From Galbibacter orientalis DSM 19592 (lineage in GTDB: Bacteria; Bacteroidota; Bacteroidia; Flavobacteriales; Flavobacteriaceae): DNA of 64,000 bases. A program made the position numbers and the translations under genes. The stretch is taken from contig NZ_JH651379.1 of NCBI RefSeq assembly GCF_000260115.1, positions 2,521,466 through 2,585,465 of the forward strand, in the 5' to 3' direction. Shown here piece after piece: positions 10,094-48,751 of the stretch (positions are counted from its first letter, which is position 1; every line of letters starts with the position of its first letter). The notes below the pieces were generated by a model, which was given only the letters and a program-made list of their open reading frames with translations, was not told the origin of the DNA and searched no databases.

Positions 10094-10183
10094 CAATCAA
10101 TAACTGGTATAATTCTTTTCGATACAAAACTCTTTAATAAACTCAGAGCAAGCATCGGAATTAAACCCTCTTAAGGGATTTAA
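10094..10183 (+). repeat. three-hairpin dispersed repeat, copy A (degenerate)
   Basis: A diverged copy of the repeat family seen best at 21833-21959. It keeps the TTCGA segment, an ACTCAGAGCAAGC stretch like the ACTCAGAACAGGC of copy C, and the last hairpin CCCT-CTTA-AGGG followed by ATTTAA. It lies in the 371-bp gap between pdhC and the M28 gene. Nothing else in that gap (9869-10093) is recognisable. Confidence 0.55.
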
Positions 10184-10190
10184 ATATACC

Positions 10191-10215
10191 AAAAATCCCG
10201 CATAAAGCGGGATTT
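10191..10215 (-). terminator. intrinsic terminator after pdhC
   Basis: Perfect 9-bp stem AAATCCCGC / GCGGGATTT with a 5-nt loop; on the minus strand it is followed by a T run. It lies 25 bp after the pdhC stop codon and closes the pdhA-pdhC transcript. Confidence 0.8.
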
Positions 10216-10239
10216 CTATGTTTATTCTATAAAATTTAT

Positions 10240-11901
10240 CTATGCTAACATGGTTACAGGGTTTTCTAAATACGCCTGTAATGTTTGTAAGAATTGAGCT
10301 CCAGTAGCACCATCAACCGTTCTATGGTCGCAGGCCAAAGTAACCTTCATTGTATGTCCAACTACAATTTCTCCATTTTTAACAACCGGTTTTTCAACAA
10401 TACTTCCTACAGAAAGAATAGCCGAATTAGGTTGATTAATAATTGAAGTAAATTCTTGGATTCCAAACATTCCTAAGTTAGAAACTGTAAAAGTACTTCC
10501 TTCCATTTCGGCAGGAGTAATTTTTTTATTTCTAGCTTTTCCAGCTAAATCTCTAACTTGAGACCCAATTTGCGTTAAACTCATTTGGTCTGTAAATTTT
10601 AATACAGGAACCAAAAGTCCGTCTTCCACAGCAACAGCAACACCTATATGTACATGGTGATTGTAAACTGTTACATCATTTTTCCATGTTGTATTTACTT
10701 GTGGGTGTTTCTTAAGCGCCATTGCACACGCTTTAACTACCATGTCATTAAAAGATACTTTAATATCTGGCAAAGCATTTATCTGACTACGAGAAGCCAT
10801 TGCATTACTCATATCTGCCTCGATAGTTAAGTAATAATGTGGCGCTGAAAATTTAGATTCTCCAAGGCGCTTCGCAATAGTTTTACGCATTTGAGAATTT
10901 TTCTTCTCTTCCGTACTTTCTTCTCCTGCGGGTACAAATGGCATTGCCGATGGAGCCGATGAAGCTTGTTGAGAAGCAGGCGCAGCTGTTGTTGCGCTTT
11001 CTGCTGGTTTCTTATAATTTTCTATATCTTTCTTAACAATTCTACCGTTCTCTCCAGAACCGTTTACATTAGAAAGATCTATTCCTTTATCTTCAGCCAT
11101 TTTTTTAGCTAAAGGAGAAACAAAAATCCTACCGTTTGAAGTAGAAGTAGCTTTTGGAGCTTCTGCTTTTTCTTCCTTAGGTGCTTCTGTTTTAGAAGAA
11201 TCTGAAGAAGTTTCTTTTTCTTTTTTAGCTGAAGCAGTTCCGCCTCCTTTTGAAGCATTTAATACTGCATCAACATCTGTACCTTCTGGTCCAATAACAG
11301 CTAAAACATCATCAACAGGTGCCGATTGTCCTTCTTCAATTCCAACATAAAGTAGCTTTCCTGAATAAAAAGACTCAAACTCCATTGTAGCTTTATCTGT
11401 TTCGATTTCAGCTAAAATATCGCCCTCTTCAACATCATCTCCTACTTTTTTAAGCCATGAAGCAACAGTTCCTTCTTCCATAGTGTCACTTAGACGTGGC
11501 ATAGTAACCACTTCTACGCCTTCAGGAATTTCTCCTCCACCATTAGAAGTTTCTTCAGAAGATTTTTCTTCGTTAGATGCTTCTTTTTTACTCTCTTCTT
11601 TAGCTTCTGCTTTTGAATCTGAAGAATTTCCAGCTCCATTAATTAGTCCTGAAACATCTTCTCCTTCTTCCCCAATGATTGCCAAAAGAGAATCAACAGG
11701 TGCACCATCTCCTTCTTGTATTCCAATATGAAGAAGCGTCCCTTCATGAAACGATTCAAACTCCATTGTAGCTTTATCTGTTTCAATTTCAGCTAAAATA
11801 TCGCCTTCTTCTACTTTATCTCCTACTTTCTTAAGCCATTTTGCAACGACACCCTCTTCCATGGTATCGCTCAAACGTGGCATGTTAATGATTTCTGCCA
11901 T
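10240..11901 (-). CDS. pdhC: pyruvate dehydrogenase E2, dihydrolipoamide acetyltransferase
   Basis: Core enzyme of the pyruvate dehydrogenase complex; passes acetyl groups from lipoyl arms to CoA. Domains in order: lipoyl domain 1 with lipoylated lysine K43 in ETDKATM, an acidic linker, lipoyl domain 2 with K170 in the same motif, an Ala/Ser/Glu-rich linker, the peripheral-subunit-binding domain (about 258-297), another Ala/Pro linker and the catalytic acyltransferase domain with the active-site histidine in CDHRTVDGA near residue 525. The two lipoyl domains are near-copies of each other. The gene starts 5 bp after pdhA. The E1-beta and E3 genes are not in the window. Confidence 0.96.
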   Translation of the reverse strand: MAEIINMPRLSDTMEEGVVAKWLKKVGDKVEEGDILAEIETDKATMEFESFHEGTLLHIGIQEGDGAPVDSLLAIIGEEGEDVSGLINGAGNSSDSKAEAKEESKKEASNEEKSSEETSNGGGEIPEGVEVVTMPRLSDTMEEGTVASWLKKVGDDVEEGDILAEIETDKATMEFESFYSGKLLYVGIEEGQSAPVDDVLAVIGPEGTDVDAVLNASKGGGTASAKKEKETSSDSSKTEAPKEEKAEAPKATSTSNGRIFVSPLAKKMAEDKGIDLSNVNGSGENGRIVKKDIENYKKPAESATTAAPASQQASSAPSAMPFVPAGEESTEEKKNSQMRKTIAKRLGESKFSAPHYYLTIEADMSNAMASRSQINALPDIKVSFNDMVVKACAMALKKHPQVNTTWKNDVTVYNHHVHIGVAVAVEDGLLVPVLKFTDQMSLTQIGSQVRDLAGKARNKKITPAEMEGSTFTVSNLGMFGIQEFTSIINQPNSAILSVGSIVEKPVVKNGEIVVGHTMKVTLACDHRTVDGATGAQFLQTLQAYLENPVTMLA

Positions 11902-11906
11902 TATTT

Positions 11907-12905
11907 TTAAAGTTTATGCTGTAAAAATGGATAATCTTCTTGTTCGTAAACAACGTCGTACATTACATTCTTATCTGGGAAATCTGATTCCTCAGCGAAT
12001 TTCTCGCACTCTTTTACTAAATCTTTTACTCGTTTGTCAATCTTAGCGATATCTTCATCCTTAGCATATTTCTTATCTAAAAGGATATCTTTAACTTGAG
12101 TAATTGGATCTATTTTTTTGTATTCTTCTACTTCGTCTTTAGTTCTATAGTGTTGAGCATCCGACATAGAATGACCACGGTATCTATATGTTTTCATTTC
12201 AAGGAAAGTTGGACCTCCTCCAGAACGTGCTCTTTCTACAGCTTCATGAACTGCTTCGGCAACTTTAACAGGATTCATCCCATCTACAGGTCCACATGGC
12301 ATATCAAAACCAAGACCTAACTTCCAAATTTCTTGTTCTTTAGAAGTTCTAGCTACAGAAGTTCCCATTGCATACCCATTGTTTTCACAAATAAAAACTA
12401 CAGGTAAATTCCAAAGCATTGCTAAATTAAAGGTTTCGTGTAAAGAACCTTGGCGCACTGCTCCATCTCCCATATAACATAAAGTTACTCCGTCTCTTTT
12501 GAAGAATTTATCTGCAAATGCAAGTCCAGCTCCAAGTGGAATTTGCCCCCCTACAATACCATGACCTCCATAAAAGTTGTGCTCTTTTGAAAAAATATGC
12601 ATCGAACCTCCTAAACCTTGAGAAGTTCCTGTTGCTTTTCCATAAAGCTCTGCCATAACTCTTTTTGGATCTACGCCCATACCTATTGGTTGAACGTGGT
12701 TACGATATGCAGTAATTAATTTATCTTTTTTAGGATCGATAGCATGCAAAGTACCTGCTAATACGGCTTCCTGTCCATTATAAAGGTGAAGAAAACCTCT
12801 TACCTTTTGTTGTATGTAAACCGCTGCCAGCTTATCTTCAAACTTTCTCCAAAATAGCATGTCTTCATACCATTTCAAGTAAACTTCTTTTGTAACTTTT
12901 TTCAT
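11907..12905 (-). CDS. pdhA: pyruvate dehydrogenase E1 component subunit alpha
   Basis: Thiamine-diphosphate-dependent alpha subunit that decarboxylates pyruvate and acetylates the lipoyl arm of E2. At 332 aa it has the usual length. The ThDP-binding motif GDGAVRQGSLHE...ENN is in the middle, and the phosphorylation-loop-like segment YRYRGHSMSD is near residue 245. It pairs with pdhC 5 bp downstream. Separation from the beta subunit gene is an arrangement I recall from other Flavobacteriaceae. Confidence 0.95.
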   Translation of the reverse strand: MKKVTKEVYLKWYEDMLFWRKFEDKLAAVYIQQKVRGFLHLYNGQEAVLAGTLHAIDPKKDKLITAYRNHVQPIGMGVDPKRVMAELYGKATGTSQGLGGSMHIFSKEHNFYGGHGIVGGQIPLGAGLAFADKFFKRDGVTLCYMGDGAVRQGSLHETFNLAMLWNLPVVFICENNGYAMGTSVARTSKEQEIWKLGLGFDMPCGPVDGMNPVKVAEAVHEAVERARSGGGPTFLEMKTYRYRGHSMSDAQHYRTKDEVEEYKKIDPITQVKDILLDKKYAKDEDIAKIDKRVKDLVKECEKFAEESDFPDKNVMYDVVYEQEDYPFLQHKL

Positions 12906-13005
12906 CTATATTTTCTTTTTGCCAAAAATTTGCGCATTCAATTTAGAAAAACATTTAACATAAATAGCACCTTACCTAAAAGGTTACGTTTTTCTAAACG
13001 CAATA

Positions 13006-13013
13006 CAAAAGTA
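13006..13013 (-). promoter_or_regulatory. -7 element of the pdhA-pdhC operon
   Basis: TACTTTTG on the minus strand, exact fit to TAnnTTTG, about 100 bp before the pdhA start. It predicts a long leader. A matching -33 element is not clear. Confidence 0.4.
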
Positions 13014-13066
13014 GCGTTTTCAATAAAAGTGTAAAAATGAAAAAGTGCTTTTATAAAAGATTTTTG

Positions 13067-13558
13067 TTAAATATTATTCAAAGTAGCTTTTCCGAAGGTA
13101 AGTGGTAATAAATCTTTTATAGAATCTGCCTTAACTACTTTCCCTGTTTCCCCCATAAAATAGAGTGCTATGGGTGCTTTTTGATTTTCTTCATATTCAA
13201 ACATTGATTGCCTACACGCACCACATGGAGGGGTTGGTGTTAACACATTAAATGCATCCGAAGAAGCAGAAATTGCCATCATTTTAATAGAAATGTTAGG
13301 ATAAAGTGCCCCTGCTTGATAAATAGCAACTCGTTCTGCGCATAAACCAGAAGGAAAAACTGCATTTTCCTGATTATTCCCCACTACAACTTCATCATTT
13401 TCTAACACAAGTGCAGCTCCTACTCTAAATTTGGAATAAGGAGCATAGGCATTTTTACGAACATTTACAGCTTTGACCATTAATTCTCTAACTTCAGTAG
13501 GAAGTTCATCTAGAGAATCGAAAACAGTAAGAGTTGTTGTTATTTCAAGTTTTTTCAT
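13067..13558 (-). CDS. cdd: cytidine deaminase
   Basis: Homotetrameric-type zinc enzyme (163 aa) converting cytidine and deoxycytidine to uridine forms in pyrimidine salvage. The zinc and proton-shuttle motif is CAE in GLCAERVAI, and the other two zinc ligands are in PCGACRQ. The start is ATG 13558. It follows porV in the same direction after a gap holding a reversed copy of the dispersed repeat. The cdd-porV neighbourhood is one I know from other Flavobacteriaceae. Confidence 0.94.
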   Translation of the reverse strand: MKKLEITTTLTVFDSLDELPTEVRELMVKAVNVRKNAYAPYSKFRVGAALVLENDEVVVGNNQENAVFPSGLCAERVAIYQAGALYPNISIKMMAISASSDAFNVLTPTPPCGACRQSMFEYEENQKAPIALYFMGETGKVVKADSIKDLLPLTFGKATLNNI

Positions 13559-13567
13559 AATGCATTT

Positions 13568-13671
13568 TTAATCCTTCATAAAGGTTTTAATTCCCCGAGA
13601 CCACTCATAATATGTGCTAAGTACTCTCGCTCAGATACCTTTTGAGCTAGTTTAAGATAATTCCTTTCCTG
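13568..13671 (-). repeat. three-hairpin dispersed repeat, copy F (reversed)
   Basis: The only copy in the opposite orientation. Read on the minus strand it has a CGAGA / TCTCG stem directly before GGGGAATTAAAA and a final hairpin CCTT-TATG-AAGG followed by ATTAAAA, matching the order in copies B and C. Its last stem differs from the CCCTC/GAGGG of copy B by paired changes. It ends ten bases upstream of the cdd start codon. Confidence 0.6.
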
Positions 13672-13740
13672 AACGCATTAGCAAAATACAATATTTTGAT
13701 TGAAAACTATTAGTTTTTAGTTTGAGTATCTAAAATGAAA

Positions 13741-13773
13741 AAAGAAGTTTTCACTATATTTTAAGGCTTCTTT
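13741..13773 (-). terminator. possible terminator after porV
   Basis: A 7-bp stem AAAGAAG / CTTCTTT with a long loop, followed on the minus strand by more T. It lies about 120 bp beyond the porV stop codon. It is weak, and is offered because no better one is present. The rest of the 13559-13893 gap, apart from repeat copy F, shows nothing. Confidence 0.3.
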
Positions 13774-13893
13774 ATTTCATATTAATTTTTATTGCTTTTT
13801 AATAATTACATGGAACATTAAAATAATCATTCTGCTTTGTATCTAAAAATTTAGACATGAATGTTTCAGTTTTATTCATCTAAACAACGCTAT

Positions 13894-15051: not shown

Positions 15052-15074
15052 TTAGTTTAGGTTGAATATTAAAA

Positions 15075-18399: not shown

Positions 18400-18430
18400 A
18401 TCTTTAAATAGACAATTTGTATTTTTCTGA

Positions 18431-18534
18431 ATTAACCAACTACCTCGAGGCAAGCCTACTAGGTATTCAAAGGAAACAATTTAATCCATTTCGACGTAGA
18501 ACGTCGGGGAATAAAACCCTCAATGAGGGATTTA
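18431..18534 (+). repeat. three-hairpin dispersed repeat, copy B
   Basis: Begins with ACTACCTCG-AGGC-AA-GCCT, has a decayed right arm of hairpin 1, then hairpin 2 CGACGT-AGA-ACGTCG (18492-18506) and hairpin 3 CCCTC-AAT-GAGGG. Hairpin 2 differs from copy D by compensatory pair changes. The copy lies in the convergent gap between murF and the ferritin-like gene and runs straight into the terminator of the latter. Confidence 0.75.
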
Positions 18535-18574
18535 AAAAAAAGGTCATTTAGAGTTTTAAACCCCTAAATGACCT
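18534..18574 (-). terminator. intrinsic terminator of the ferritin-like gene pair
   Basis: On the minus strand, an 11-bp perfect stem (AGGTCATTTAG / CTAAATGACCT) with a 12-nt loop, followed by a run of eight T. It is 20 bp after the stop codon of the 276-aa ferritin-like protein. Confidence 0.8.
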
Positions 18575-18593
18575 CAACAACCAACCAAAAAAT

Positions 18594-19424
18594 TTATTCT
18601 TCAACTATAAATAGACTAGCTATTGCTACGGCATCATCTCCAGATAATGCCTCATCATAAGCTTCGGTAGAAGCATCCATGCTAAAAGCAGCACCGCTAC
18701 CCAAAGTAGTTACATCTAAACCACCTTGCATTACATTTTCCTCACCATTATAAACGGGCTGTGTTGCATCTGGCATTCCTGCACCTCTTTCATTTCCTGT
18801 AATCCAACCTTTCAAACCTCTTAACCTTCTAATTTCAGAAGCATGTCTAGCTTCCACAGAATGAATTTGTAAAGCGGCAGTTAAGAACGGGGAACCTAAT
18901 AAATTTCCTGCCTGCCCTTTATATGCTCTCACTCCTGTATCTTCAAAAGCTTGTGCCAATGCTAATAATTGTGCATATGCCGTTTCTTGTCCAACTCCAT
19001 TATCATTGAACGGATCGAAAGTACCACCTACAGTAAAATCGAATGTTGGCTTTGAAACTGGAGTTACCCCAGCACCTTCTAAACCAGCTATTAAAAAGTC
19101 AACATGCGCTTGTTCATGCTTAGAAATCTGCATATAAACAGTTTCAGGTCTTCCAGATGGCAACACTCCCGATTGAAGGGCTAAATCGTAAAACTCATCT
19201 TCTAAATACTCTAAAGTTAAAGCTAATTGAAGCGCTCCAACTGGATCTGTATTCATAGATTGCGCATATGTTTTTTTAGGCATTGCTGCCAATCCTAAAG
19301 GAACTGCAGCCATAGCCGCTTTCTTCCCTAATGTTCCTAATGTTCCAAATATATCTCGTCTTGATGTTTTACCTTCTAAAATACTACTGGTAGTAAAATC
19401 ATCTAAAAAATTTATAATATTCAT
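18594..19424 (-). CDS. ferritin-like domain protein, Tat-type export signal
   Basis: Exported protein of 276 aa of the Ferritin_2 type (related to plant desiccation protein PCC13-62). A twin-arginine motif (SRRDIF) at about residue 21, a hydrophobic stretch and a YAQ cleavage site indicate export of a folded, possibly metal-bound protein. Helices with E-x(n)-H/E patterns are seen: LEYLEDEFYD, KHEQAHVDFL, EDTGVRAYKG and SVEARHASEIRRLRG, matching the four-helix di-metal arrangement. Function is not established. It is paired with a paralogue 74 bp upstream. Confidence 0.82.
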   Translation of the reverse strand: MNIINFLDDFTTSSILEGKTSRRDIFGTLGTLGKKAAMAAVPLGLAAMPKKTYAQSMNTDPVGALQLALTLEYLEDEFYDLALQSGVLPSGRPETVYMQISKHEQAHVDFLIAGLEGAGVTPVSKPTFDFTVGGTFDPFNDNGVGQETAYAQLLALAQAFEDTGVRAYKGQAGNLLGSPFLTAALQIHSVEARHASEIRRLRGLKGWITGNERGAGMPDATQPVYNGEENVMQGGLDVTTLGSGAAFSMDASTEAYDEALSGDDAVAIASLFIVEE

Positions 19425-19498
19425 CGTTTTATGTTTTTGGATTAGTTCAGTTTTAAACTGAAATAAATAATTTATTACTAATAACTAAAGGTTCTTCA

Positions 19499-20227
19499 CT
19501 ACGGTAAGTTATTCGCTGTAAATTCAGTTTTAATGAATCCTGTTGCAGATACGGCAGCCAAAATATCTGATGGATCTAAAGCTGCATCTAAACCTGTATC
19601 TACAGTTACTACATCATCTCCAGCAAAGTCTGCCGAGTTAGGATTTATAAGTGTTCTTATTGCAGAAGCATGTCTTGCTTCTACAGAAACTATTTTTCCC
19701 GCTATTAATAAATAATCTGGATTAGAAATCAATCTTCCTGCACCATTATACGCAGCAACACCAGTATCCTCTAGTACTTTTGCAGTACCTAAAACTTGAG
19801 CTCTATTACTAAAATCCAAATCTCCATAATCAAACTCTAAAGTTGGCAACATTAAGTCTGTATTCCCTTCTACTGCTGCTGAAATTGCGGCATTAAAGAA
19901 ATCTCTATGATTTACCTCATGGTAATACAAGTCTGTTAAAACTTGTCTTTCTTCATCTGTAATATTAGCGTAAAATGAATTTACAACCTTAGTGTAGAAA
20001 TCTGCTTCCAGTTGCTCTAACGCATAGGCGTAATTTAAAACCCCTAGATCTCCTTCGCCTAAATCGAATATTCCACCTTCAGGCGGCGGCATCATATTTT
20101 GATCATCGTCATTACTACAAGCCATTAATAATCCAGTACCAGCTACCGCCAGTCCTCCCAATTTTAAAAATTGTCTTCTGTTATTAAAGCTCTTTGGTTG
20201 ATGAACTTTTATTGTTGTCTTTTTCAT
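19499..20227 (-). CDS. ferritin-like domain lipoprotein, Tat-type export signal
   Basis: First gene of the ferritin-like pair, 242 aa. The N-terminus has a clear twin-arginine signal (RRQFLKLGG) followed by a lipobox ending in cysteine (GLLMAC), so it is likely exported folded and then lipid-anchored. The helix motifs correspond to those of its neighbour: LEQLEADFYTKV, YYHEVNHRDFF, EDTGVAAYNGAG and SVEARHASAIRTL. The two proteins are diverged paralogues and probably act together. No catalytic role is known to me. Confidence 0.82.
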   Translation of the reverse strand: MKKTTIKVHQPKSFNNRRQFLKLGGLAVAGTGLLMACSNDDDQNMMPPPEGGIFDLGEGDLGVLNYAYALEQLEADFYTKVVNSFYANITDEERQVLTDLYYHEVNHRDFFNAAISAAVEGNTDLMLPTLEFDYGDLDFSNRAQVLGTAKVLEDTGVAAYNGAGRLISNPDYLLIAGKIVSVEARHASAIRTLINPNSADFAGDDVVTVDTGLDAALDPSDILAAVSATGFIKTEFTANNLP

Positions 20228-20550
20228 AATTGATGTTTTTATGATTAATCTTCACTTATACTAACGAAGAAAAAAGACAAGCGGTTTTCTTAAAATTTTG
20301 TTAAAGTTAAATTTGATTAATTCTGTACAAAAAAAAGACCGTTAACCACAAATATATCTTTCCATTCCCTGCTATTCTAACCGCAGCTCCTCAAGGAAAA
20401 AGAATGATCTATATTCCAGAATCTGCGGCTAAAATTGGTAGAATTAAAAAATGCTATAATAAAATTGTGGGGAAGTAAAACACTCATTGTGACAACATAA
20501 TATAGTCCGTGGTTTATGTGCGTTAATTTTCGGTTTAGCACAGGCTTTAG

Positions 20551-20594
20551 CAATTCCGAGCGGATTCGTACGTAGTCGAATCCGCTCGGAATTG
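20551..20594. repeat. 44-bp inverted repeat, 18-bp perfect arms
   Basis: CAATTCCGAGCGGATTCG, an 8-nt loop, and its exact reverse complement. There is no T run on either side, so it is not an ordinary terminator. It sits 30 bp beyond the stop codon of the TIMP-like gene. GC content is higher than the surroundings. The 20228-20623 gap also holds a 53-codon open stretch on the plus strand ending at 20478 that looks like the tail of a protein but has no recognisable identity. Confidence 0.75.
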
Positions 20595-20623
20595 TGGTTA
20601 CTATTGCTACCACCAGTTATTTT

Positions 20624-21376
20624 TCATAGATAATACTGACTTAAAAAACTAGGATTTTCTTTTTCTTTTGGGTAAAAATAAATTCCGATTAACAACTTAC
20701 TGTTATCTGGAACTTTGTCTTCTACTCCATTATCAAAACTTGTCCATTCCGTTTTTTTAATTATCTCAATTAATTTTTTGTCGATTGGGTTTTGATATCC
20801 ACTTATTTCAATGACGTTTTTAATCCTCAAATCAGATGCAAAAGTTATTTCATAAATTCCATAATTTCTTTCAAGATCAATGCCTATGAACTGTTCTAAT
20901 TCTTCATGAAGTCCCGCCTTTTCTCGATAACTTATTTTGTCTGTAAAATTTATGTTTTTCGACTTGAAAGTTTTTAGAATATCTAATTCTCTTTTTTGTC
21001 GTTTCTGATTTGTTTTGTTCAAATAAAGCAAACCAGAACACATCCCTATTCCGTAATGTTCTTCTTTATTTTTACTTGCATAAGCAATTAAACTTGTGTT
21101 TTCTGGAATATAAATATCACAAGAAGTTCCAATTCCATTGTCACTTCTCCCATAAACATAAATTGATTTTAATCTATCGCCTTTATAGAGCTCATTAATT
21201 TTAATATCTACTCTATAGCTTTGTTTATTCTTTTGATTTGGATAGATTTTAATAATTGTCACATTAGCAACAAAATCAGATTGAGTATACTTTTCAGTTA
21301 TTTTCGGCGGGTCGCAATCGCAAGCAAAAACTCCGATTGAAAACAGAAAGATTGTTATTTGCAGGATTTTTTTCAT
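20624..21376 (-). CDS. hypothetical secreted protein, TIMP/NTR-like N-terminus
   Basis: A 250-aa protein with a signal peptide ending at cysteines C19 and C21 (FACDCDPP). The Cys-x-Cys start, a following ADV-like strand and a later G-CD-Y segment near residue 100 resemble TIMP/netrin-like (NTR) folds, but similarity is weak. C19 fits a lipobox only poorly. The C-terminal 80 residues look like a separate alpha-beta domain. I start at ATG 21376; an upstream ATG at 21388 would spoil the signal peptide. It is a lone gene between repeat-rich gaps, with a large inverted repeat just past its stop, which suggests an acquired cassette. Function unknown. Confidence 0.6.
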   Translation of the reverse strand: MKKILQITIFLFSIGVFACDCDPPKITEKYTQSDFVANVTIIKIYPNQKNKQSYRVDIKINELYKGDRLKSIYVYGRSDNGIGTSCDIYIPENTSLIAYASKNKEEHYGIGMCSGLLYLNKTNQKRQKRELDILKTFKSKNINFTDKISYREKAGLHEELEQFIGIDLERNYGIYEITFASDLRIKNVIEISGYQNPIDKKLIEIIKKTEWTSFDNGVEDKVPDNSKLLIGIYFYPKEKENPSFLSQYYL

Positions 21377-21456
21377 AATTAATGGCAACTAATAATTAAA
21401 AACAGAAGAAAGCCCATGTGGTCATTTTTAATTAGGACAGAATTTACTATTAATTC

Positions 21457-21726
21457 CTAACAGCGAAAGAACAACCTTACATACCAATTTTCCATTTTCA
21501 TGCCTTTAAGGTTTTTAAAATCTTTTGTATTATCAGTTACTAAGATTAACTGATTTTCTATAGCTGTAATTCCTATTAGTAAATCAAACTCATCATGCAT
21601 CGGTATTCTATTCTTTATCCCTAAATTTTCTGCTTCCCTAAATTTCTTTTATAATTTGCTCGGCGGATTTTTCTGAATCAAAAGCTCTGAATAAGTTTCG
21701 ATTATATGTCGGTCTATGTATGTCAT
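21457..21726 (-). pseudogene. PIN-domain (VapC-like) toxin gene remnant
   Basis: Read on the minus strand, the last 60 codons up to the TAG at 21457 encode MHDEFDLLIGITAIENQL, then ILVTDNTKDF, then LKGMKMENW, which is the C-terminal third of a PIN-domain endonuclease (aspartate, then the T-D/H-N motif and a final NW). Upstream coding (FRAFDSEKSAEQIIKE) continues in another frame after a single-base shift near 21650, and the N-terminal aspartate block and any antitoxin gene are absent. It is a decayed toxin of a toxin-antitoxin pair. Confidence 0.6.
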
Positions 21727-21832
21727 TTTATTTCAAATATAATATTTCTTTTAGAATCAAATTCTCTCTCATTATTGCCAACAGACTCATTAACAACCAA
21801 AAAGAAGTCCCTTGTTAAAAATTCATTCTCAT

Positions 21833-21959
21833 GAATCAACTACCTCGAGGCAAGCCTACGAGGTAGTTAAAGGAAAATAATTTAATCCATTTCGACGTAG
21901 AGCCTTTCAATATACTCAGAACAGGCTCTGGGAATAAAATCCTCAATGAGGGGATTTAA
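21833..21959 (+). repeat. three-hairpin dispersed repeat, copy C (best preserved)
   Basis: Hairpin 1 is AACTACCTCG-AGGC-AA-GCCT-A-CGAGGTAGTT (21838-21868), nearly perfect. Hairpin 2 is an enlarged version with an AGAGCCT / AGGCTCT stem. Hairpin 3 is CCTC-AAT-GAGG. The end of the repeat contains the stop codon of the glycoside hydrolase gene at 21956-21958. The rest of the 21389-21955 gap holds the PIN remnant and nothing else I can name. Confidence 0.8.
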
Positions 21960-24589
21960 GAAATATCGTCTATTAAATTTGCCACCAAACTTGTCCATCC
22001 TGTTTGATGAGACGCGCCTAAACCACGACCATTATCTCCATCAAAATACTCATAAAACAAAATTAGATCTTTAAACATAGCCTCTTTATACTTTTCTGGA
22101 TGATTGGAATTTATTGGTCGGTTTCCATTACTATCTTTTTCAAACATATTAATAAGACGCTCACTTAGGTTTAAAATAATTTCTGATAACTCTTTCTTTT
22201 GACCACTTCCTGTTGGAAATTCAAAACTCAAAGACCCCATTTTATGACTTTGGTATTCTTTTAAAGCTTGAATAAAAAGAAAATTAATAGGCATCCAGAT
22301 AGGTCCCCTCCAATTTGAATTCCCTCCGAATAAATGCACCGTAGATTCTCCAGATTCATAATTAATAGAATAATCAATGTTTTCAATACTAATATGGTAT
22401 GGCTTTTCATGTGCTTTAGAAAGAGAACGTATCCCATAGTCGCTTAAAAACTCTTTTTCATCTAAAAAGCTCTTCATTAAAATTAATAATCGATCTTGAG
22501 GCACTAAAGACAGTAATAAGTCCTCACCATCTACAAACGACTGGATTACTGGATATTTCAATGTATTTTTTCGGTATCGTTTAAACCAATTAATACTACG
22601 CTCAAATTTTGGTAGTTTCTCTATAACTTCTTTTTTGATATTTAAAACTGCAGCCATAGACAACAAACCAGCAATAGAACGGACTTTTATCAGTGTAGAT
22701 TCTCCAGAAGGCAGTGTTAATTTATCATAAAAAAAGCCTTCCTCTTCATCCCAAGTTCCTTGAGAATTAATATTTATATTATTTAAAGCTTCAGCAATAA
22801 ATACAAAATGTCCAAAATATTTTATAGTCATATCCTCATAACTATTGTCTTGTAAAGAGATCTCAAGACTAATTTCCAACATACTTAAACAATAAAGTGC
22901 CATCCATGAAGTGCCATCTACCTGCTCCAACTTTCCGTTTCCAGGAACCCCATAACTCCTGTCAAACACCCCTATATTATCGAGTCCTAAAAAGCCTCCT
23001 TCAAAAATATTATTATTACTACTATCTAATCTATTTACCCACCATGTAAAATTCAATGCTAATTTATTGAGTATCCGTTTTAAAAACTTAATATCTCCTA
23101 CACCCTTTTGTTCCTTATCAATTTTATAAACTTTCATTGCAGCCCATGCCTGTACTGGTGGGTTGACATCACTAAAAGACCATTCGTAGGCTGGAATTTG
23201 TCCATTTGGAGCCATATACCATTCTCTAGTAAATAATATAAGCTGATTTTTTGCAAATTCTGGGTCAATTTTAGCCAAGGAAATACAATGAAATGCAGAA
23301 TCCCACGAAGCATACCATGGATATTCCCATTTATCGGGCATCGACATAATATCGTGATTTCTCAATGTTTTCCAATTACTATTTCTCCCCGAAAGTCTTT
23401 CCACAGGAGGTATAGAAACATCAGAATCGCCTTCTAACCAAGTTTCAACATCGTAATTGTAATATTGTTTTGTCCATAACAATCCAGAGTAAGCTTGCCG
23501 TTGAATAGCTTTCCGTTCATTAGTACTCCCATTAGTTATTGCATTGTAAAACTCATTACATTCTTCTATACGGCGATTAAAAATTTCCTCAAACTGCTCG
23601 TCAAAAGGTTGCGAGTGCTCTTGTGCAGAAAGACGCAATTTTATAGTTTTTGTTTCCCCTCCTTGAAAATTTAATTTGTATACAGGGGCAAATTTTGTTC
23701 CTTCCTCTATAGATGTTGGCAAAGAAACATTATCATTCACTAAAGAAGTATGAAAAAGATCCTTTTTATATGGATGGTCATTCTTTCTTAAATATACAGC
23801 TTCTTCATTGGTTTCATTTTTAGTAAAAAACAAAAAATCAGCTTCCTCAAAATACAAATTATAACTCCCTACATAAATGTTCTTTACAGCTACATAATCC
23901 ATTCCATTAGCTGTTTGTTTTTTGATGAATGGTTTTTCTTTTATTCCAACAAAACTCCAATAATTTCGAATCCAAAGAGTAGGCAACAAATGTAAATCGG
24001 CTTGAGTTTTAGCTACATTTTCAATTGTTATTTTTATAAGAAGGTCTTCATTATCTGCTTTTGCATATTCTGTTTCTACATTAAAATACTTATCTCCTTT
24101 AAAAGCATCGGTATCTAGAATTTTATATTCACGTTCATTCAAACCTCTTTTTCGGTTTTCCTCCACAATTTTATCATACGGAAACTCTTCTTGCGGATAC
24201 TTATAGAGATGTTTCATATAAGAATGAGAAGGGGTGTTTTCTAGATAGTAATACAATTCTTTCACATCTTCTCCATGGTTTCCCTCAGGACCAGTTAATC
24301 CAAAAAGTCGTTCTTTCAAAATAGAGTCTTTTCCATTCCAAAGTGTTATTCCAAAACAAATATTACAATAACGATCGGAAATTCCAGCAATTCCATCTTC
24401 TCCCCAACGATAGGCTCTACTACGAGCGTGGTCGTGCGTAAAATACCCCCAAGCATCTCCATTTGAGCTGTAATCTTCTCGAACTGTTCCCCATTGCCGC
24501 TCACTTAAATAAGGCCCCCATTTAAGCCAATCTTTCTTCTCCGAATAATTTTCTTCTAAACGCTCATGCTCCTTAGTTCTGATTTCCAT
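21956..24589 (-). CDS. MGH1-like glycoside hydrolase (GH63-related glucosidase)
   Basis: Large 877-aa enzyme with no signal peptide, so probably cytosolic. The family call comes from the N-terminal block (ERQWGTVREDYS...GDAWGYFTHDHARSRAYRWGEDG) and the (alpha/alpha)6-barrel segments: WYASWDSAFHCISLA, NGQIPAYEWSFSDVNPPVQAWA, DGTSWMALYCL, NWRGPIWMPINF and GRGLGASHQTGWTSLVA. Conserved acids in ASWDSAFH and DGTSW are likely catalytic or binding residues. Related proteins act on mannosylglycerate, glucosylglycerate or glucosides; the substrate here is not decidable. It is a single gene; the stop codon lies inside a dispersed repeat. Confidence 0.8.
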   Translation of the reverse strand: MEIRTKEHERLEENYSEKKDWLKWGPYLSERQWGTVREDYSSNGDAWGYFTHDHARSRAYRWGEDGIAGISDRYCNICFGITLWNGKDSILKERLFGLTGPEGNHGEDVKELYYYLENTPSHSYMKHLYKYPQEEFPYDKIVEENRKRGLNEREYKILDTDAFKGDKYFNVETEYAKADNEDLLIKITIENVAKTQADLHLLPTLWIRNYWSFVGIKEKPFIKKQTANGMDYVAVKNIYVGSYNLYFEEADFLFFTKNETNEEAVYLRKNDHPYKKDLFHTSLVNDNVSLPTSIEEGTKFAPVYKLNFQGGETKTIKLRLSAQEHSQPFDEQFEEIFNRRIEECNEFYNAITNGSTNERKAIQRQAYSGLLWTKQYYNYDVETWLEGDSDVSIPPVERLSGRNSNWKTLRNHDIMSMPDKWEYPWYASWDSAFHCISLAKIDPEFAKNQLILFTREWYMAPNGQIPAYEWSFSDVNPPVQAWAAMKVYKIDKEQKGVGDIKFLKRILNKLALNFTWWVNRLDSSNNNIFEGGFLGLDNIGVFDRSYGVPGNGKLEQVDGTSWMALYCLSMLEISLEISLQDNSYEDMTIKYFGHFVFIAEALNNININSQGTWDEEEGFFYDKLTLPSGESTLIKVRSIAGLLSMAAVLNIKKEVIEKLPKFERSINWFKRYRKNTLKYPVIQSFVDGEDLLLSLVPQDRLLILMKSFLDEKEFLSDYGIRSLSKAHEKPYHISIENIDYSINYESGESTVHLFGGNSNWRGPIWMPINFLFIQALKEYQSHKMGSLSFEFPTGSGQKKELSEIILNLSERLINMFEKDSNGNRPINSNHPEKYKEAMFKDLILFYEYFDGDNGRGLGASHQTGWTSLVANLIDDIS

Positions 24590-39842: not shown

Positions 39843-39843
39843 A

Positions 39844-41338: not shown

Positions 41339-41438
41339 AATCAACTATCTCTAGGCAAAATCGAGATAGTAAGACAAAACAAATTTAACTCATTTCGGCA
41401 CAGAGTGTCGGGGGATTAAATCCTTCATGAGAAATTAA
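41339..41438 (+). repeat. three-hairpin dispersed repeat, copy D
   Basis: Hairpin 1 stem is ACTATCTC / GAGATAGT (41344-41351, 41363-41370), where copy C has ACTACCTC / GAGGTAGT: one C-G pair replaced by T-A. Hairpin 2 is CGGCAC-AGA-GTGTCG (41396-41410), where copy B has CGACGT-AGA-ACGTCG: two further compensated pairs and one wobble. Hairpin 3 is decayed. It lies between gltD and the operon terminator. Confidence 0.75.
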
Positions 41439-41472
41439 AATAGCCGACTTCAATTTGAGGTCGGCTATTTTT
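41437..41472 (+). terminator. terminator of gltBD
   Basis: A long stem (AAAATAGCCGACTTCAA pairing with TTGAGGTCGGCTATTTT, one G-T pair) followed by T. It lies directly after repeat copy D. Confidence 0.85.
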
Positions 41473-43578: not shown

Positions 43579-43593
43579 TTACTGTATATATAT

Positions 43594-43812: not shown

Positions 43813-43845
43813 AGGTTGGCAAATTATTTTAGCCAACCTTTTTTT
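43813..43845 (+). terminator. rightward terminator overlapping the convergent gene
   Basis: GGTTGGC / GCCAACC with an 11-nt loop followed by seven T on the plus strand, so it stops transcription coming from the DUF4369 gene. The last four codons and the stop of the leftward gene at 43824 form part of the hairpin. Confidence 0.7.
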
Positions 43846-44261: not shown

Positions 44262-44322
44262 AATAAGTTTAGTTAGTTATAAGTCTTATAAATTTAAGAA
44301 ATAAAACGCAAACTTAAATTGC

Positions 44323-44937: not shown

Positions 44938-45007
44938 TTATAATAAATCTTAGTGTGCTAAATATACGTAGAAGATTTTTTACAGAACTCCCTAAAAAAT
45001 AAAGATT

Positions 45008-45445
45008 TTAATTCAACCAGTTCTTTTTTATACTGAAGTTTGAAAAGAATACGTGAAAAACACCAGCAAGAATAATAAAAACAGGGAGAATTACAGATTC
45101 GGGACTGAAAGACTCTAATGAAGTTACCCCTATTAAACTATATATCATTTGAATTAAGATAGCCACCAGAGAAAGTACAAATAAGGGTCTTGACCACTTT
45201 TTACGCAATAATAAACCTATACTTCCAATAACTCCAGACAATACAGCTACAGCATATACAACTTCCATCCAAGAGGGATAAGAAAGTAAGAGTTCTTTTT
45301 CTGAAATTGGAAGCGCCAACAAGGAAGCTTGAGTCATGCTTATTTGTCCTATAAAAGCTCCCAGCCCCATTAAATTCCAAATAAGTGCAAATATAGAAAC
45401 TATCCAAAACCAAATTGGAAGACTTAAAACAGCTTTACGAGTCAT
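45008..45445 (-). CDS. small four-helix membrane protein, paralogue 2
   Basis: Same length (145 aa) and layout as the protein at 43824, and about half of the positions agree in the membrane segments, so the two arose by duplication. It has four hydrophobic segments and no signal peptide. It begins near the direct repeat at 45526-45572. No known function. Confidence 0.7.
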   Translation of the reverse strand: MTRKAVLSLPIWFWIVSIFALIWNLMGLGAFIGQISMTQASLLALPISEKELLLSYPSWMEVVYAVAVLSGVIGSIGLLLRKKWSRPLFVLSLVAILIQMIYSLIGVTSLESFSPESVILPVFIILAGVFHVFFSNFSIKKNWLN

Positions 45446-45525
45446 AATCTATTAAATTTTAGCTTATTACACCTCTAATATACACTTTATATAAGGATTT
45501 CTAAAGTGTTAAAATTACTGACTCT

Positions 45526-45572
45526 ATTTTTATCATTTATGTCCGAGTAAAATACAAGACCGCTTCGCTGTA
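45526..45572 (+). repeat. 47-bp dispersed repeat, copy 2, right of the marC block
   Basis: Second copy of the repeat at 43594-43640, in the same orientation. The minisatellite starts at its right edge, at the place where the first copy has only a short purine-rich tract. Confidence 0.8.
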
Positions 45573-45576
45573 TGAA

Positions 45577-45768
45577 CAAAGAGGCAAGAGGCAAGAGACA
45601 AGAGACAAGAGGCAAGAGACAAGAGACAAAGAGACAAAGAGACAAGAGACAGGAGACAAGAGACAAAGAGACAGGAGACAGGAGACAAGAGACAAAGAGA
45701 CAGGAGACAGGAGGCAAGAGACAGGAGATAGGAGATAGAAAACAAGAAACAAGAGATATGTATATCCC
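45577..45768. repeat. GAGACA-type minisatellite, about 190 bp
   Basis: A nearly uninterrupted purine-rich tract built of 7-8-bp units GAGACAA, GAGACAG, GAGGCAA and AGAGACAAA, ending in decayed units (GATAGGAGATAG). It is open in several frames on both strands, but the translations (RQETRDK-type or Ser/Leu/Cys-type) are low-complexity and not credible genes. Apart from this, the 45446-45951 gap holds repeat copies and the tRNA-Thr terminator. Confidence 0.9.
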
Positions 45769-45818
45769 TAAATAGAGTTGACCGTTTTTATTTAATTTCC
45801 ATTATCAAAAATGTAGAA

Positions 45819-45876
45819 TTCTTCTTATTCAGATTAACCACAATTTTTACATAAACACAACAATTGGGAATGATCC
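45819..45876 (+). repeat. 58-bp dispersed repeat, copy 2, beside tRNA-Thr
   Basis: Matches 26209-26266 at 52 of 58 positions. It lies 41 bp beyond the terminator of the tRNA-Thr gene, the same relation as at the tRNA-Val locus. Confidence 0.75.
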
Positions 45877-45916
45877 ACTTTTTTATGAAAGGAAACTACT
45901 ATTGTATTTATACCCA

Positions 45917-45949
45917 TAAAAAAAGCCTCTTCATTTTTGAAGAGGCTTT
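45917..45949 (-). terminator. terminator of tRNA-Thr
   Basis: On the minus strand a perfect 12-bp stem (AAAGCCTCTTCA / TGAAGAGGCTTT), 4-nt loop and T run, directly after the tRNA. Confidence 0.85.
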
Positions 45950-45951
45950 AG

Positions 45952-46025
45952 AGCCGATAGAGGGACTCGAACCCACGACCTGCTGATTACAAATCAGCTG
46001 CTCTAGCCAGCTGAGCTACATCGGC
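45952..46025 (-). tRNA. tRNA-Thr(TGT)
   Basis: Complete cloverleaf on the minus strand, 74 nt: acceptor GCCGATG/TATCGGC (one G-T pair), D arm GCTCAG...GAGC, anticodon stem GCTGA/TCAGC with loop TTTGTAA (anticodon TGT, reads ACA), T arm GTGGGTTCGAGTCCC. CCA is not encoded, unlike the tRNA-Val genes. Confidence 0.94.
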
Positions 46026-46044
46026 GTTTCCCTTAAAAAGTGCG

Positions 46045-46075
46045 CAAATATAATTCTCAAAATTATACTTGCAAA
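46045..46075 (-). promoter_or_regulatory. promoter of tRNA-Thr
   Basis: On the minus strand TTTG (46072-46075), a 19-bp spacer and TATATTTG (46045-46052), identical in both boxes and spacing to the tRNA-Val and porV promoters. Confidence 0.75.
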
Positions 46076-46108
46076 CTTTTTTAAAAGAAATTTTTGATTT
46101 TTTTTAGA

Positions 46109-46384
46109 TTAAGCCGCTGACAATTTATTCAGCTTTTCAACTAAAGAAGAAGCTTTCTCTTCAAGCTCTTTGTTAACTTGCTTTAAATGAGCTTTTCTAT
46201 TATCTACATCTTTATTATTAACCTTTACGATTAACTCATCAAAAGTAGCAATTGCTTCATCTATAATTTTATCACCTTCTTTAGAATTTGGTGTATTGGT
46301 ACTTATTTCCCAAATGTAAACAGCTTCAATAATATCTCCTAAAACGAAGTTTATATCTCTCTTTAAATCTCTTATACTAGCCAT
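46109..46384 (-). CDS. conserved small helical protein of unknown function
   Basis: A 91-aa protein with no signal peptide or membrane segment. It is predicted to be entirely helical, with a C-terminal coiled-coil-like stretch (LKQVNKELEEKASSLVEKLNKL). I do not recognise a named family, but it has normal codon use, a clean start codon and its own -7 element (TACTTTTG at 46403-46410, minus strand), so it is a real gene. It lies between tRNA-Thr and manA. Confidence 0.7.
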   Translation of the reverse strand: MASIRDLKRDINFVLGDIIEAVYIWEISTNTPNSKEGDKIIDEAIATFDELIVKVNNKDVDNRKAHLKQVNKELEEKASSLVEKLNKLSAA

Positions 46385-46402
46385 ACTATTTTATTTTAGC
46401 TG

Positions 46403-46410
46403 CAAAAGTA
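46403..46410 (-). promoter_or_regulatory. -7 element of the 91-aa protein gene
   Basis: TACTTTTG on the minus strand, 18 bp before the start codon, fitting TAnnTTTG. A TTTG with a rather long 23-bp spacer overlaps the end of manA. Confidence 0.4.
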
Positions 46411-46418
46411 CAGCATTT

Positions 46419-47387
46419 TTATAAATGTACCTCCAAAATTTTAGCATCCTTAGCACTAATACTAATTTCATTGATTGTGGCTGGAATGAGGATTGTTTCT
46501 CCTTGTGCTAACTTCTCTATATTTTCTCCGACTTTAATTTGCGCTTGTCCGTCCACACAAATATAAATAGTAAAAGAATCTCTATTAACTAATTGCTTTA
46601 CAAAGGTTCCTACAACATTTAAATAATTGGTAATAAAATAATCACAAGTCACCATATTATTAGACGAATTATACTCCGTACCATAGTTAACCTTAAAATC
46701 GTCTTTCTTCTGATAATCGATTGCGTCTACTGCCAATTCGGTATGCAATTCTCGTGTATTCCCATCTTTATCTTTACGTTCATAATCATAAATTCGATAC
46801 GTAACATCTGATGTTTGCTGAATTTCTGCCAATAGAATTCCTGCTCCAATTGCATGAACTTTTCCTGTATTGATAAAATAGGTGTCGCCTGCTTTAACTT
46901 CTTCTTGATTTAAAATCTCAAGTAATTGTCCGTTTTCTAAGTGTTCTAAATATTCTTCTTTCGTCAAAGTTTCTTTAAAACCAACAATCAATTTAGAACC
47001 TGGATCGGCTTGCATAACATGCCACATTTCTGTTTTTCCGAAGGAATTATGCCTTTCTTTTGCCAAGGCATCATTAGGGTGAAGCTGTACAGATAAATCT
47101 AATTTTGCATCTATAAACTTAATCAAGATTGGAAATTTACTCCCGAAACGTTTGTAAACAGAAGCTCCTAAAAGTTCCTCTTTATAAGTATCTATTAATT
47201 CTTGAAGTGTTTTTCCTTGTAATTCTCCATTGCTAGCAACAGAAACATTTCCTTCTACTCCAGACAGCTCCCAACTTTCTGAGGCTGTAGTTGTTTTTAC
47301 ATCCTTCTGAAGGACTTCTTTTAATTTGTTTCCTCCCCATAAATACTCTTTATAAATAGGAATAAACTTTAATGGGTATAAATTCAT
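46419..47387 (-). CDS. manA: mannose-6-phosphate isomerase, class I
   Basis: Zinc enzyme of 322 aa that interconverts fructose 6-phosphate and mannose 6-phosphate, entry to GDP-mannose synthesis (manC is at 6519). Seen are the N-terminal LKFIPIYKEYLWGGNKL, the zinc/active-site QLHPND near residue 100, GKTEMWHVM, and the cupin strand GKVHAIGAGILLAEIQQTSDVTYRIYDY. It is the short bacterial form. It lies 28 bp after the pterin synthase-like gene. Confidence 0.93.
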   Translation of the reverse strand: MNLYPLKFIPIYKEYLWGGNKLKEVLQKDVKTTTASESWELSGVEGNVSVASNGELQGKTLQELIDTYKEELLGASVYKRFGSKFPILIKFIDAKLDLSVQLHPNDALAKERHNSFGKTEMWHVMQADPGSKLIVGFKETLTKEEYLEHLENGQLLEILNQEEVKAGDTYFINTGKVHAIGAGILLAEIQQTSDVTYRIYDYERKDKDGNTRELHTELAVDAIDYQKKDDFKVNYGTEYNSSNNMVTCDYFITNYLNVVGTFVKQLVNRDSFTIYICVDGQAQIKVGENIEKLAQGETILIPATINEISISAKDAKILEVHL

Positions 47388-47415
47388 TTTTATATAAACG
47401 CTTTATTAATAATTA

Positions 47416-47823
47416 TTAAGCCCCTGTATAGGTAACATAATTTCTTGGTGTTTCATATAGCACAACCTCCAATTCAAATTCCTCTAAAAAAGGTTTTAAC
47501 CGATTGTAGATTACTATAGCTATATTTTCTACGGTTGGATTTAAGGTTTTAAATTCTGGAACTTCAATATTAAGATTTTTATGATCTAAATGATCTTCAA
47601 CTTCTCTTTCGATAAGCTCTTTTAATATTTTTAAGTCGATTACAAATCCAGTTTCAGGATCAATTTCTCCTTTTACACTTACAATTAAATCGTAGTTATG
47701 ACCGTGATAATTAGGATTGCTGCATTTTCCAAATACAGCTTTATTTTTATCGTCGTCCCAATCTGGACGAAACAATCTATGAGCTGCATTAAAATGAGCT
47801 TTTCTACTAACTTTTAAGTTCAT
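47416..47823 (-). CDS. 6-pyruvoyl-tetrahydropterin synthase / QueD family protein
   Basis: A 135-aa COG0720 enzyme acting on dihydroneopterin triphosphate. Zinc ligands H15, H40 and H42 are present, and the catalytic cysteine C34 stands in a C-x5-HGH motif (GKCSNPNYHGHNY). In this family C-x3-HGH is typical of queuosine enzymes (QueD) and C-x5-HGH of 6-pyruvoyl-tetrahydropterin synthase; GEIDPETGFVIDL and LDHKNL also resemble the animal enzyme. The sequence therefore favours a tetrahydropterin role over queuosine. Annotation pipelines would usually call it queD. Confidence 0.85.
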   Translation of the reverse strand: MNLKVSRKAHFNAAHRLFRPDWDDDKNKAVFGKCSNPNYHGHNYDLIVSVKGEIDPETGFVIDLKILKELIEREVEDHLDHKNLNIEVPEFKTLNPTVENIAIVIYNRLKPFLEEFELEVVLYETPRNYVTYTGA

Positions 47824-47910
47824 CTGTTACTATTTATTGTTTTTCAATGGTCAGCTATAATGCTCTTGACTATCATAATTGGTTGGTTTCCAAATTTGTT
47901 AATAGGCATT

Positions 47911-48447
47911 TCATGATATAGCACTAGATTGTTCTTCAATATGAAGGTAGAATTTTTCAAATATTATTTTAAACCAAGCTGTATACTCATCAGGATTAAC
48001 CTGCATATCTTTTTTAATATCTTTTAAAGACATCCATTTCCAGCTTGCTACTTCATCAGGATTAATTTTTGGTTCTTCATTATACTTACCTACCAAAATA
48101 TGATCGTATTCATGTTCTGTTAATCCATTATCAAAAGGAGCATGGTATATAAATGACAAAACTTCTTCAAGGTCTGTAGCAAACCCCATTTCTTCTTGCA
48201 AACGACGTTTTCCTGCTTCAATATTACTTTCTCCTTCTCTTTGGTGACTGCAACAGGTATTTGTCCACAAGCCTGGAGAATGGTATTTATGAGCCGCACG
48301 TTGTTGAACCATGGTTTCCCCAGCATCATTAAAGACAAAAACTGAAAAAGCTCTATGAAGCAGCGCTTTTTCATGTGCTTCAATCTTTTCCATTAATCCA
48401 ATTTGCTGATCATTTGCATCAACCAAAATAACTTTTTCTTTTTCCAT
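47911..48447 (-). CDS. idi: isopentenyl-diphosphate delta-isomerase, type I
   Basis: Interconverts IPP and DMAPP for isoprenoids. The 178-aa Nudix-fold enzyme shows the catalytic cysteine in WTNTCCSHQREGE near residue 65, the divergent Nudix helix AGKRRLQEEMGF and the metal-binding EYDHILVG. Length is standard. It lies between the pterin gene and the surface-protein locus. Confidence 0.93.
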   Translation of the reverse strand: MEKEKVILVDANDQQIGLMEKIEAHEKALLHRAFSVFVFNDAGETMVQQRAAHKYHSPGLWTNTCCSHQREGESNIEAGKRRLQEEMGFATDLEEVLSFIYHAPFDNGLTEHEYDHILVGKYNEEPKINPDEVASWKWMSLKDIKKDMQVNPDEYTAWFKIIFEKFYLHIEEQSSAIS

Positions 48448-48543
48448 TTAGCATTTTTCTTTCAAAGGATGATTGGTTTCTTTTCAATCTGCCGTAAAAT
48501 AGCACAACAAATCTACAAAAATGGTTAACCATATCATAAAACA

Positions 48544-48571
48544 AAAAATCCCACTTGTTGTGAGATTTTTC
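48544..48571. terminator. possible terminator upstream of idi
   Basis: AAAAATC-x-CAC / GTG-x-GATTTTT with a short loop, one mismatch, and A/T runs on both sides, so it could work in either direction. It would end leftward transcription of the surface-protein locus before idi. Confidence 0.4.
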
Positions 48572-48649
48572 AGCTAAACCCTTTTTAGAGTTTTTCTTTA
48601 TAGTAACGCTATATTATTTTAAATTGAAGCAATCATTAATTTCATCTAA

Positions 48650-48751
48650 AATCAACTACCCCGGAGCAAAATCACAAGGTATTCAAACGCAGAGTCCAAT
48701 GGTAAGTCCGGAACAGGCTTTGAAGCATTATACCCTCTGTATGGGATTAAA
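48650..48751 (+). repeat. three-hairpin dispersed repeat, copy E (degenerate)
   Basis: Begins ATCAACTACC, keeps the GGTATTCAAA segment also seen in copy B and CGGAACAGGCTT like copy C, and ends with CCC-...-GGGATTAAAA. It ends 18 bp before the stop codon of the PorP/SprF gene. The rest of the 48448-48768 gap holds only the weak hairpin at 48544. Confidence 0.6.

Follow-up and report, generated by a model that had tools for sequence, protein, structure and literature searches.

The DNA considered here, the window, is a stretch of 64,000 nucleotides from the flavobacterium Galbibacter orientalis DSM 19592 (C1:2521466-2585465 of a 4.5-Mb genome, G000, in two contigs, C1 and C2). It carries six copies of a repeat with three hairpins, which an earlier note had described from the letters of the window. 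The repeat is in all likelihood a non-autonomous element of the IS200/IS605 type, the single-strand insertion sequences (IS) that depend on an HUH tyrosine transposase, and as it is without tnpA it would be a palindrome-associated transposable element (PATE). This identification is made because the repeat has subterminal hairpins of the IS200 type, a TTNAA junction, no clear target duplication and no gene. It is a new and unusually numerous element of the PATE type that shows a strand bias in one genome; the kind of element is already known, and it is not a new RNA.

The earlier note wrote the repeat on the strand opposite to the mobile one, and it is the reverse complement that shows both of the subterminal hairpins that flank tnpA in IS200-type transposons elsewhere in the family. 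On this strand the order is the TTNAA target, an outer hairpin (hairpin 3), the left-end (LE) hairpin (hairpin 2), a spacer, the right-end (RE) hairpin (hairpin 1) and a GTTGATT end, with the short form of the element reading TTTAA at the target and then TCCCTC..GAGGGTTTTATTCCCCGACG..CGTCG ... GAATACCTCGTAGGCTTGCCTCGAGGTAGTTGATT.

The ends of the repeat match those of relatives that carry a transposase. The hairpins that flank an IS200-type tnpA in a congener (L134) carry the element's letters, and of 149 family genomes searched with its protein 24 have a match, some of the matches being distant. The surroundings were printed for 25 of the 60 loci fetched, which amount to 23 distinct places, and at 15 of these 23 both an LE and an RE of the element's type are present, examples being TTTAATC...ATTCCCCGACGCTTGCGTCGGG for the LE and GATACCTCG...CGAGGTAGTTCATT for the RE. 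Other places have the LE only (L164) or the RE only (L171, L162 and L186, the last two at contig edges), and the surroundings of tnpA at L132, L141, L135 and L173 have neither. The tnpA that lies beside an element in G012 (L141) was taken as coincidence, the same tnpA being found at L132 and L147 without the motif. Within one IS the tips of the LE and RE can have letters in common, as with CAGCTTGCTGCGGGG in L165.

The RE can also be followed without reference to the transposase. A 33-nt RE pattern, with up to 2 mismatches allowed, is found in 8 of 299 family genomes, with 79 matches here, 18 in the seven others and 0 for the reversed control, and 7 of the 18 matches outside this genome sit just 3' of a tnpA match. 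Eight places outside this genome were printed: tnpA is upstream in L226, L228 and L231, the ends alone are present in L227, L230 and L233, L229 has an RE only and L225 was not located. The ends-only relatives are ~80-90 nt long; L233 (G159) and L227 (G109) are both in tnpA-bearing genomes, and L230 is in a genome (G183) outside the tnpA search. An exact 27-nt pattern from hairpin 1 occurs at one place in the named-genome collection, in a Bacteroidetes metagenome-assembled genome (L131), where it belongs to a similar short element.

Across 150 copies the element stops sharply at its left boundary, AATCAAC, with nothing notable in the flank outside it, and its opposite boundary has conserved TT and AA on either side of a middle base that varies, with TTNAA in 120 of the 150 and TTAAT in 12; TTTAA is also found at the left ends of intact IS copies. 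By inspection there are no terminal inverted repeats, as the ends AATCAAC and GGGATTTAA are unlike. When the same copies were searched for a target duplication, flank matches at k=2, 3, 5, 6 and 8 were not above shuffles, with zero copies at k=5, 6 and 8, and at k=4 there were 6 matches against a shuffled mean of 2.5 (maximum 7) if TTNAA is counted as flank, and 0 if it is not. The absence of a target duplication is a trait of the IS200/IS605 family. The repeat does not fit a classical miniature inverted-repeat transposable element (MITE), as there are no terminal inverted repeats and no clear target duplication. The repeat is also present or absent at the same site between species: the window copy referred to below as copy C is absent from the syntenic gap in all three congeners in which the whole gap was read (G003, G004, G006), with the right flank in G003 resuming at about TTTAA, and in G005, where the gap is ~1.5 kb, the 144 nt read beside the right flank hold no copy C.

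The repeat is not confined to the window. A covariance model (R1), trained on copies mostly chosen by their likeness to copy D of the window, gives at least 150 copies in the genome at E<=1.2e-11 (the best 150 of 3832 candidates scored), mostly 126 bp long and intergenic, and a left-hairpin pattern with up to 3 mismatches gives 156 genome matches against 2 for its reversed control. The model is mostly a sequence profile, because RNAalifold predicted only 6 pairs on 35 similar copies. The 150 copies total 18,538 bases or 0.41% of the genome, 122 of them are 123-132 bp, and 9 reach more than 20 nt into an open reading frame (ORF), counting ORFs of 100 aa or longer. With lengths of 96-147 they contain no transposase gene, that is no tnpA of the Y1 HUH kind such as an autonomous IS would carry. 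The mean identity of the copies is 81% and many are decayed, with some 98-100% identical over their common columns.

What had been described as one form of repeat proves to be two lumped together, a short form (~103 bp, copies C and E) and a long form (126 bp, copy D) in which a larger hairpin containing CCCTTCGATAAACTCAGGACAGG replaces the 3' arm of hairpin 2, with differences in D itself. By the class of hairpin 2 there are 139 long copies, 10 short and 1 between among the 150, a census that favours the long form because the training copies of R1 mostly resembled D. Apart from this genome, R1 was run on 39 relatives and 7 of them gave matches, with many in G002 (32) and G006 (8); the best-scoring matches are ~103 bp and of the short form.

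It is possible to propose how the repeat came to be spread. A TnpA supplied in trans would recognise the folded ends and excise the strand, which would then be inserted 3' of TTNAA on single-stranded DNA, mainly on the lagging-strand template, so that one orientation would accumulate in each replichore; after insertion the copies would decay largely neutrally in intergenic DNA. We infer the action of TnpA in trans, insertion on the lagging-strand template as the cause of the strand bias, the neutral decay and the loss of the cognate tnpA from the genome.

The strand bias itself is strong. GC skew read from 64 samples switches four times on C1, at 0.895-0.912, 2.136-2.158, 2.723-2.748 and 3.408-3.462 Mb, the switches having been fitted on skew alone and their midpoints taken for concordance. 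The strand written in the earlier note is on the C-rich strand in 121 of the 133 C1 copies (60 + 61 vs 7 + 5, Fisher p 1.2e-23), and therefore the mobile strand is the G-rich one. GC skew is usually read with the G-rich strand as the lagging-strand template, and on that reading the mobile strand would lie on this template, with the polarity expected for insertion there. In a control by rotation, 121 was reached by 395 of 20,000 random shifts; with shifts taken every 5 kb it was reached by 14 of 790, all of them within 0-65 kb, and the best beyond 200 kb was 104. C2 has 17 copies, 15 of them on its minus strand, and its smoothed skew is positive throughout, with 4 of 13 single stretches slightly negative; a search of a plasmid collection with C2 gave no match. 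The bias is present in every third of the copies by score (40/44, 38/44 and, in the lowest third, 43/45) and in the short-form copies of C1 (7/7), and in the window copies A, C, D, E and F fit the skew and B does not. It does not follow the genes, as of the 78 C1 copies that lie between tandem genes (taken as ORFs of 100 aa or more) 40 are on the gene strand, compared with 71 that fit replication.

That C1 has four skew switches rather than two, bounding the stretches 2147001-2735501 and 2735501-3435126, is an observation in its own right, and the orientation of the element switches alongside; it suggests a large rearrangement or an assembly join.

A replication-coupled, lagging-strand orientation has been documented for the IS200/IS605 family, as set out in the relevant passages of a review (PMC5371812, citing Ton-Hoang 2010). 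In Halanaerobium, going by the portion of PMC7290912 that deals with it, no strand preference was seen and 10 of 22 tnpA were on the leading strand.

A number of points weigh against reading the repeat as a PATE that is inserted on the lagging-strand template. No base-exact empty site was obtained, site C showing absence only, as the insertion there cannot be placed to the base because the left flank has diverged. The intact IS ends that were printed hold no counterpart of hairpin 3 or of the long-form hairpin 2. A protein search for tnpA of the L134 type gave 0 candidates in this genome, and the only Y1 transposase gene that it does have, L031, is of REP-associated look (REP, repetitive extragenic palindrome) with different flanking hairpins. 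The sampling of skew was not blind to the elements, because 20 stretches were added around the switch zones, and a first, kernel-smoothed reading of the skew gives 117 of 133 rather than 121. The assignment of the leading strand rests on GC skew together with the 62% of long-ORF bases that are on the G-rich strand, the tRNA genes being uninformative (6 of 10 co-directional) and a search for rRNA as a check on the leading strand having found nothing. Finally, the bias is not replicated in relatives, with 16/32 in G002 and 5/8 in G006 when the skew was read locally, in stretches of 10-20 kb about each R1 match; both genomes are drafts and many of the matches are weak, and the same approach gives 30/37 in this genome. 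As G002 and G006 do not show it, the bias cannot be claimed as general.

The L031 gene (L031:1429-1992, C1 about 1762743-1763306) lies in a region of small ORFs, is flanked by hairpins of the CCCCCCGCT type and offers a different explanation, in which the repeat is of the REP or REPIN type and is mobilised by this resident REP-associated tyrosine transposase rather than by an IS200-type TnpA. Proteins like L031 might move REPs, going by the parts of PMC8266576 that treat them, and copies that are 98-100% identical speak for the recent action of some mobiliser (or for gene conversion), L031 being the only Y1 candidate. Against this, the hairpins that flank L031 differ from those of the element and are essentially unrepeated, as in 1.36 Mb of other sequence from this genome three of their exact strings have 0 matches and the fourth, of 9 nt, has 1, and the RE of the element closely matches IS200-type ends. 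A REP or REPIN with its REP-associated tyrosine transposase (RAYT) would have the same palindrome flanking the RAYT gene, and the flanks of L031 differ. Mobilisation by L031 is therefore very unlikely. For an IS200/IS605-type PATE, the mobiliser would be missing or recently lost, because no matching tnpA was found, yet some copies are almost identical.

Another possibility is that the polarity is of use to the host. KOPS and Chi are host-used polar chromosome markers, and the repeat could be one more, with its orientation held by selection; the polarity is strong here, even in the lowest-scoring third of the copies, and since it is unseen in the relatives it may be peculiar to this species. 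The copies do not, however, crowd near the switches (22 lie within 150 kb of the ter-like switch points, where 20.4 are expected), their spacing is irregular (coefficient of variation 1.2), many of them have decayed, and an insertion bias already predicts the polarity observed, so that a selected marker is highly improbable. A related suggestion is that the host keeps or uses the orientation of the element, above all that of the long form with its swapped left hairpin, as a replication-polarised feature of the chromosome in this species. This would account both for the polarity of old copies, which equals that of young ones, and for its absence from two relatives with mainly the short form, and it too is to be thought of as a slim chance.

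The earlier note held the hairpins to be kept by compensatory changes. Covariation was scored over the 150 copies (139 long-form copies for hairpin 2) as cells with a double change and cells left unpaired, against shuffles. In hairpin 1 the double-change cells number 35, where shuffles average 18 and reach 28 at most, and the unpaired cells number 176, where no shuffle falls below 186; a single pair, however, accounts for 25 of the 35 double changes, which have the look of a subfamily passed on by descent. For hairpin 2 (13 double-change against 8, maximum 15; 123 unpaired against 124) and hairpin 3 (2 against 2.5; 77 against 77) there is nothing beyond shuffles. Therefore, within the genome the stem substitutions of hairpins 2 and 3 are no more paired than expected, and it is for hairpin 1 that the proposal of compensatory change holds, beyond shuffles here, mainly through one pair, and clearly only between lineages. 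The comparison between lineages started from 35 loci, of which 10 were not located by motif and 6 of other length were dropped, leaving 19 RE-hairpin sequences (18 distinct) that were found with a locator favouring conserved outer stems. In the 18 distinct sequences 93.9% of cells are paired compared with 82.8% in shuffles, and there are 25 double-change cells compared with 8.4, neither value being reached in 500 shuffles; the signal collapses when slid by one column, and two coarser measures are weaker, at 48 and 36 of 500 shuffles. This would suggest that the constraint acts while a lineage moves and that dead copies decay, which fits a transposase that reads the folded strand. Thus, of the idea that a folded RNA or single-stranded DNA is or was under selection, what survives is a folded DNA strand read by a transposase, visible in the right-end hairpin between lineages, with little upkeep of the single copies here.

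A folded RNA or a 3'-end regulatory module, with each copy under selection, is by comparison extremely improbable. There are three hairpins, the consensus RNA fold has a z-score of -3.4, hairpin 1 is paired above shuffles, and the copies lie nearer to the 3' ends of genes (median 47 nt) than to the 5' ends (116.5 nt). Yet the strand of the element is independent of its neighbouring genes, hairpins 2 and 3 do not covary above shuffles, and 32 of the 40 genomes searched have no R1 match. Nor did a copy match Rfam, as a search of the window at gathering cut-offs gave three tRNAs alone, and a permissive search restricted to 18400-22000 (copies C and D) gave one match that lies off the copies (E=0.18). 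Of the two candidates that had been put forward, the 3'-end RNA module is consequently unsupported, because the element strand is independent of flanking genes and no copy matches Rfam, and the mobile REP-like element was close, the repeat being an ends-only derivative of IS200/IS605.

The copies in the window were called with R1, and as C, D, E and F were in its training set only A and B are independent matches there. Copy A (10067..10183, plus strand) is full-length and degenerate, its transposed strand being the opposite strand (48.3 bits, E=1.6e-7), and copy B (13567..13666, minus strand) is the most degenerate, in an orientation opposite to the other five, with a weak match (24.7 bits, E=0.0098). 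Copies C (18434..18535, plus strand, 108.8 bits), in which hairpin 2 is CGACGTAGAACGTCG, and E (41339..41439, plus strand, 64.7 bits) are of the short form, and copy F (48650..48751, plus strand, 72 bits) has an internal deletion past hairpin 1. Copy D (21834..21959, plus strand, 147.9 bits) is of the long form, 126 bp and near the genome consensus, and a DNA search with it matched the genome at 41 other places (E<=1e-25). Its features are all on the plus strand. Hairpin 1 (21841..21865) is the RE hairpin of IS200-type relatives read in reverse, with the same motif, GATACCTCG...CGAGGTAGTTCATT, as the RE of intact IS copies. Hairpin 2 (21899..21929) is the long-form replacement, AGAGCC...GGCTCT, which was assigned to the place of the LE hairpin by its position relative to the ATTCCCC of IS left ends and by the consensus fold. 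Hairpin 3 (21940..21952), CCTC..GAGG in the consensus fold, is the extra outer hairpin that is absent from the intact IS left ends printed, and TTTAA (TTNAA) at 21955..21959 would be the target, which on the transposed strand lies 5' of the element.

All six of the intergenic copies that had been reported are therefore present, with B weak and with D overlapping the end of an ORF (at least 80 aa) by 4 nt, and their common order of three hairpins is correct, with A, B and F degenerate. The paired substitutions cited as examples exist under shifted labels: the change in hairpin 1 given as C to D is really D to E, that in hairpin 2 given as B to D is C to E, and the CCTT/AAGG of hairpin 3 given to F is in B.

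The repeat has counterparts in systems that are already known, which are compared here as they appear in the portions of the cited papers that concern them. The PATEs of Haloquadratum walsbyi (PMC3119063) are likewise short, present in many copies and without a transposase gene or terminal inverted repeats, they have near-terminal palindromes related to IS605-type transposons and a short targeting oligonucleotide, and the resident IS200-type transposases are mostly missing or broken, as here. Unlike them, the element is bacterial and akin to IS200-type elements that bear tnpA; it has one more hairpin on the outside and a strong strand bias in one genome, and in its long form the LE hairpin is replaced. 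With IS200/IS605 elements such as IS608 and ISDra2 it shares subterminal LE and RE hairpins beside a short A+T-rich site, ends that match tnpA loci of the same bacterial family, and the polarity reported for insertion on the lagging-strand template (PMC5371812), and it differs in having no tnpA, with none of that type found in the genome. By eye, the TnpA of its relatives has Y-x-x-NQ as in subclass 1.1 (classes in PMC6006769). REPs, bacterial interspersed mosaic elements (BIMEs) and REPINs, with RAYT or TnpA-REP (PMC3116915, PMC8266576), are also intergenic, palindromic, of high copy number and possibly moved by Y1 enzymes, whereas the element is a longer composite with two unlike ends and the resident RAYT-like gene has other hairpins. 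No description of this element was found in those parts of the PATE, REPIN and MITE literature that were covered, which is not proof of its being unpublished.

A separate, BIME-like repeat is also present in the genome, in which CCTTCGACAAGCTCAGG and ACTTCGACAAGCTCAGT occur in pairs 40-43 nt apart, 5 of 6 pairs being inverted, and which is often followed by tandem TTCGACAAGCTCAG units. It is found at L062, L066, L067, L087 and L088, for example at C1:1093958 and 1093999, and the long-form hairpin 2 resembles it. The idea that standalone CCTTCGACAAGCTCAGG shares the strand bias was dropped, as of its 18 sites on C1 that lie outside the copies 12 agree, and the majority are in inverted pairs. 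Within the window there are further repeats, namely a long array at 53183-58966 with spacings of ~330-440 bp inside large reading frames (families D1-D10), a purine-rich minisatellite of GAGACAAGAGACAAGAGGCAA units between ORFs at 45567-45766 (D8), and a 90-bp intergenic stretch at ~20511-20600, another dispersed repeat common to the congeners, which G006 matches at five places, G002 at two and G005 at one (82-89%).

The near-identical copies on two replicons raise the question of which transposase is behind them, when no cognate tnpA has been found. Because the bias fails in two relatives, whether lagging-strand insertion is general can be put directly to the test. With 150 or more insertions that each have a direction, this single-strand element has left a fossil record of fork direction, and as the blocks of element orientation agree with the switches of GC skew, such elements could help to read inversions and replichores.

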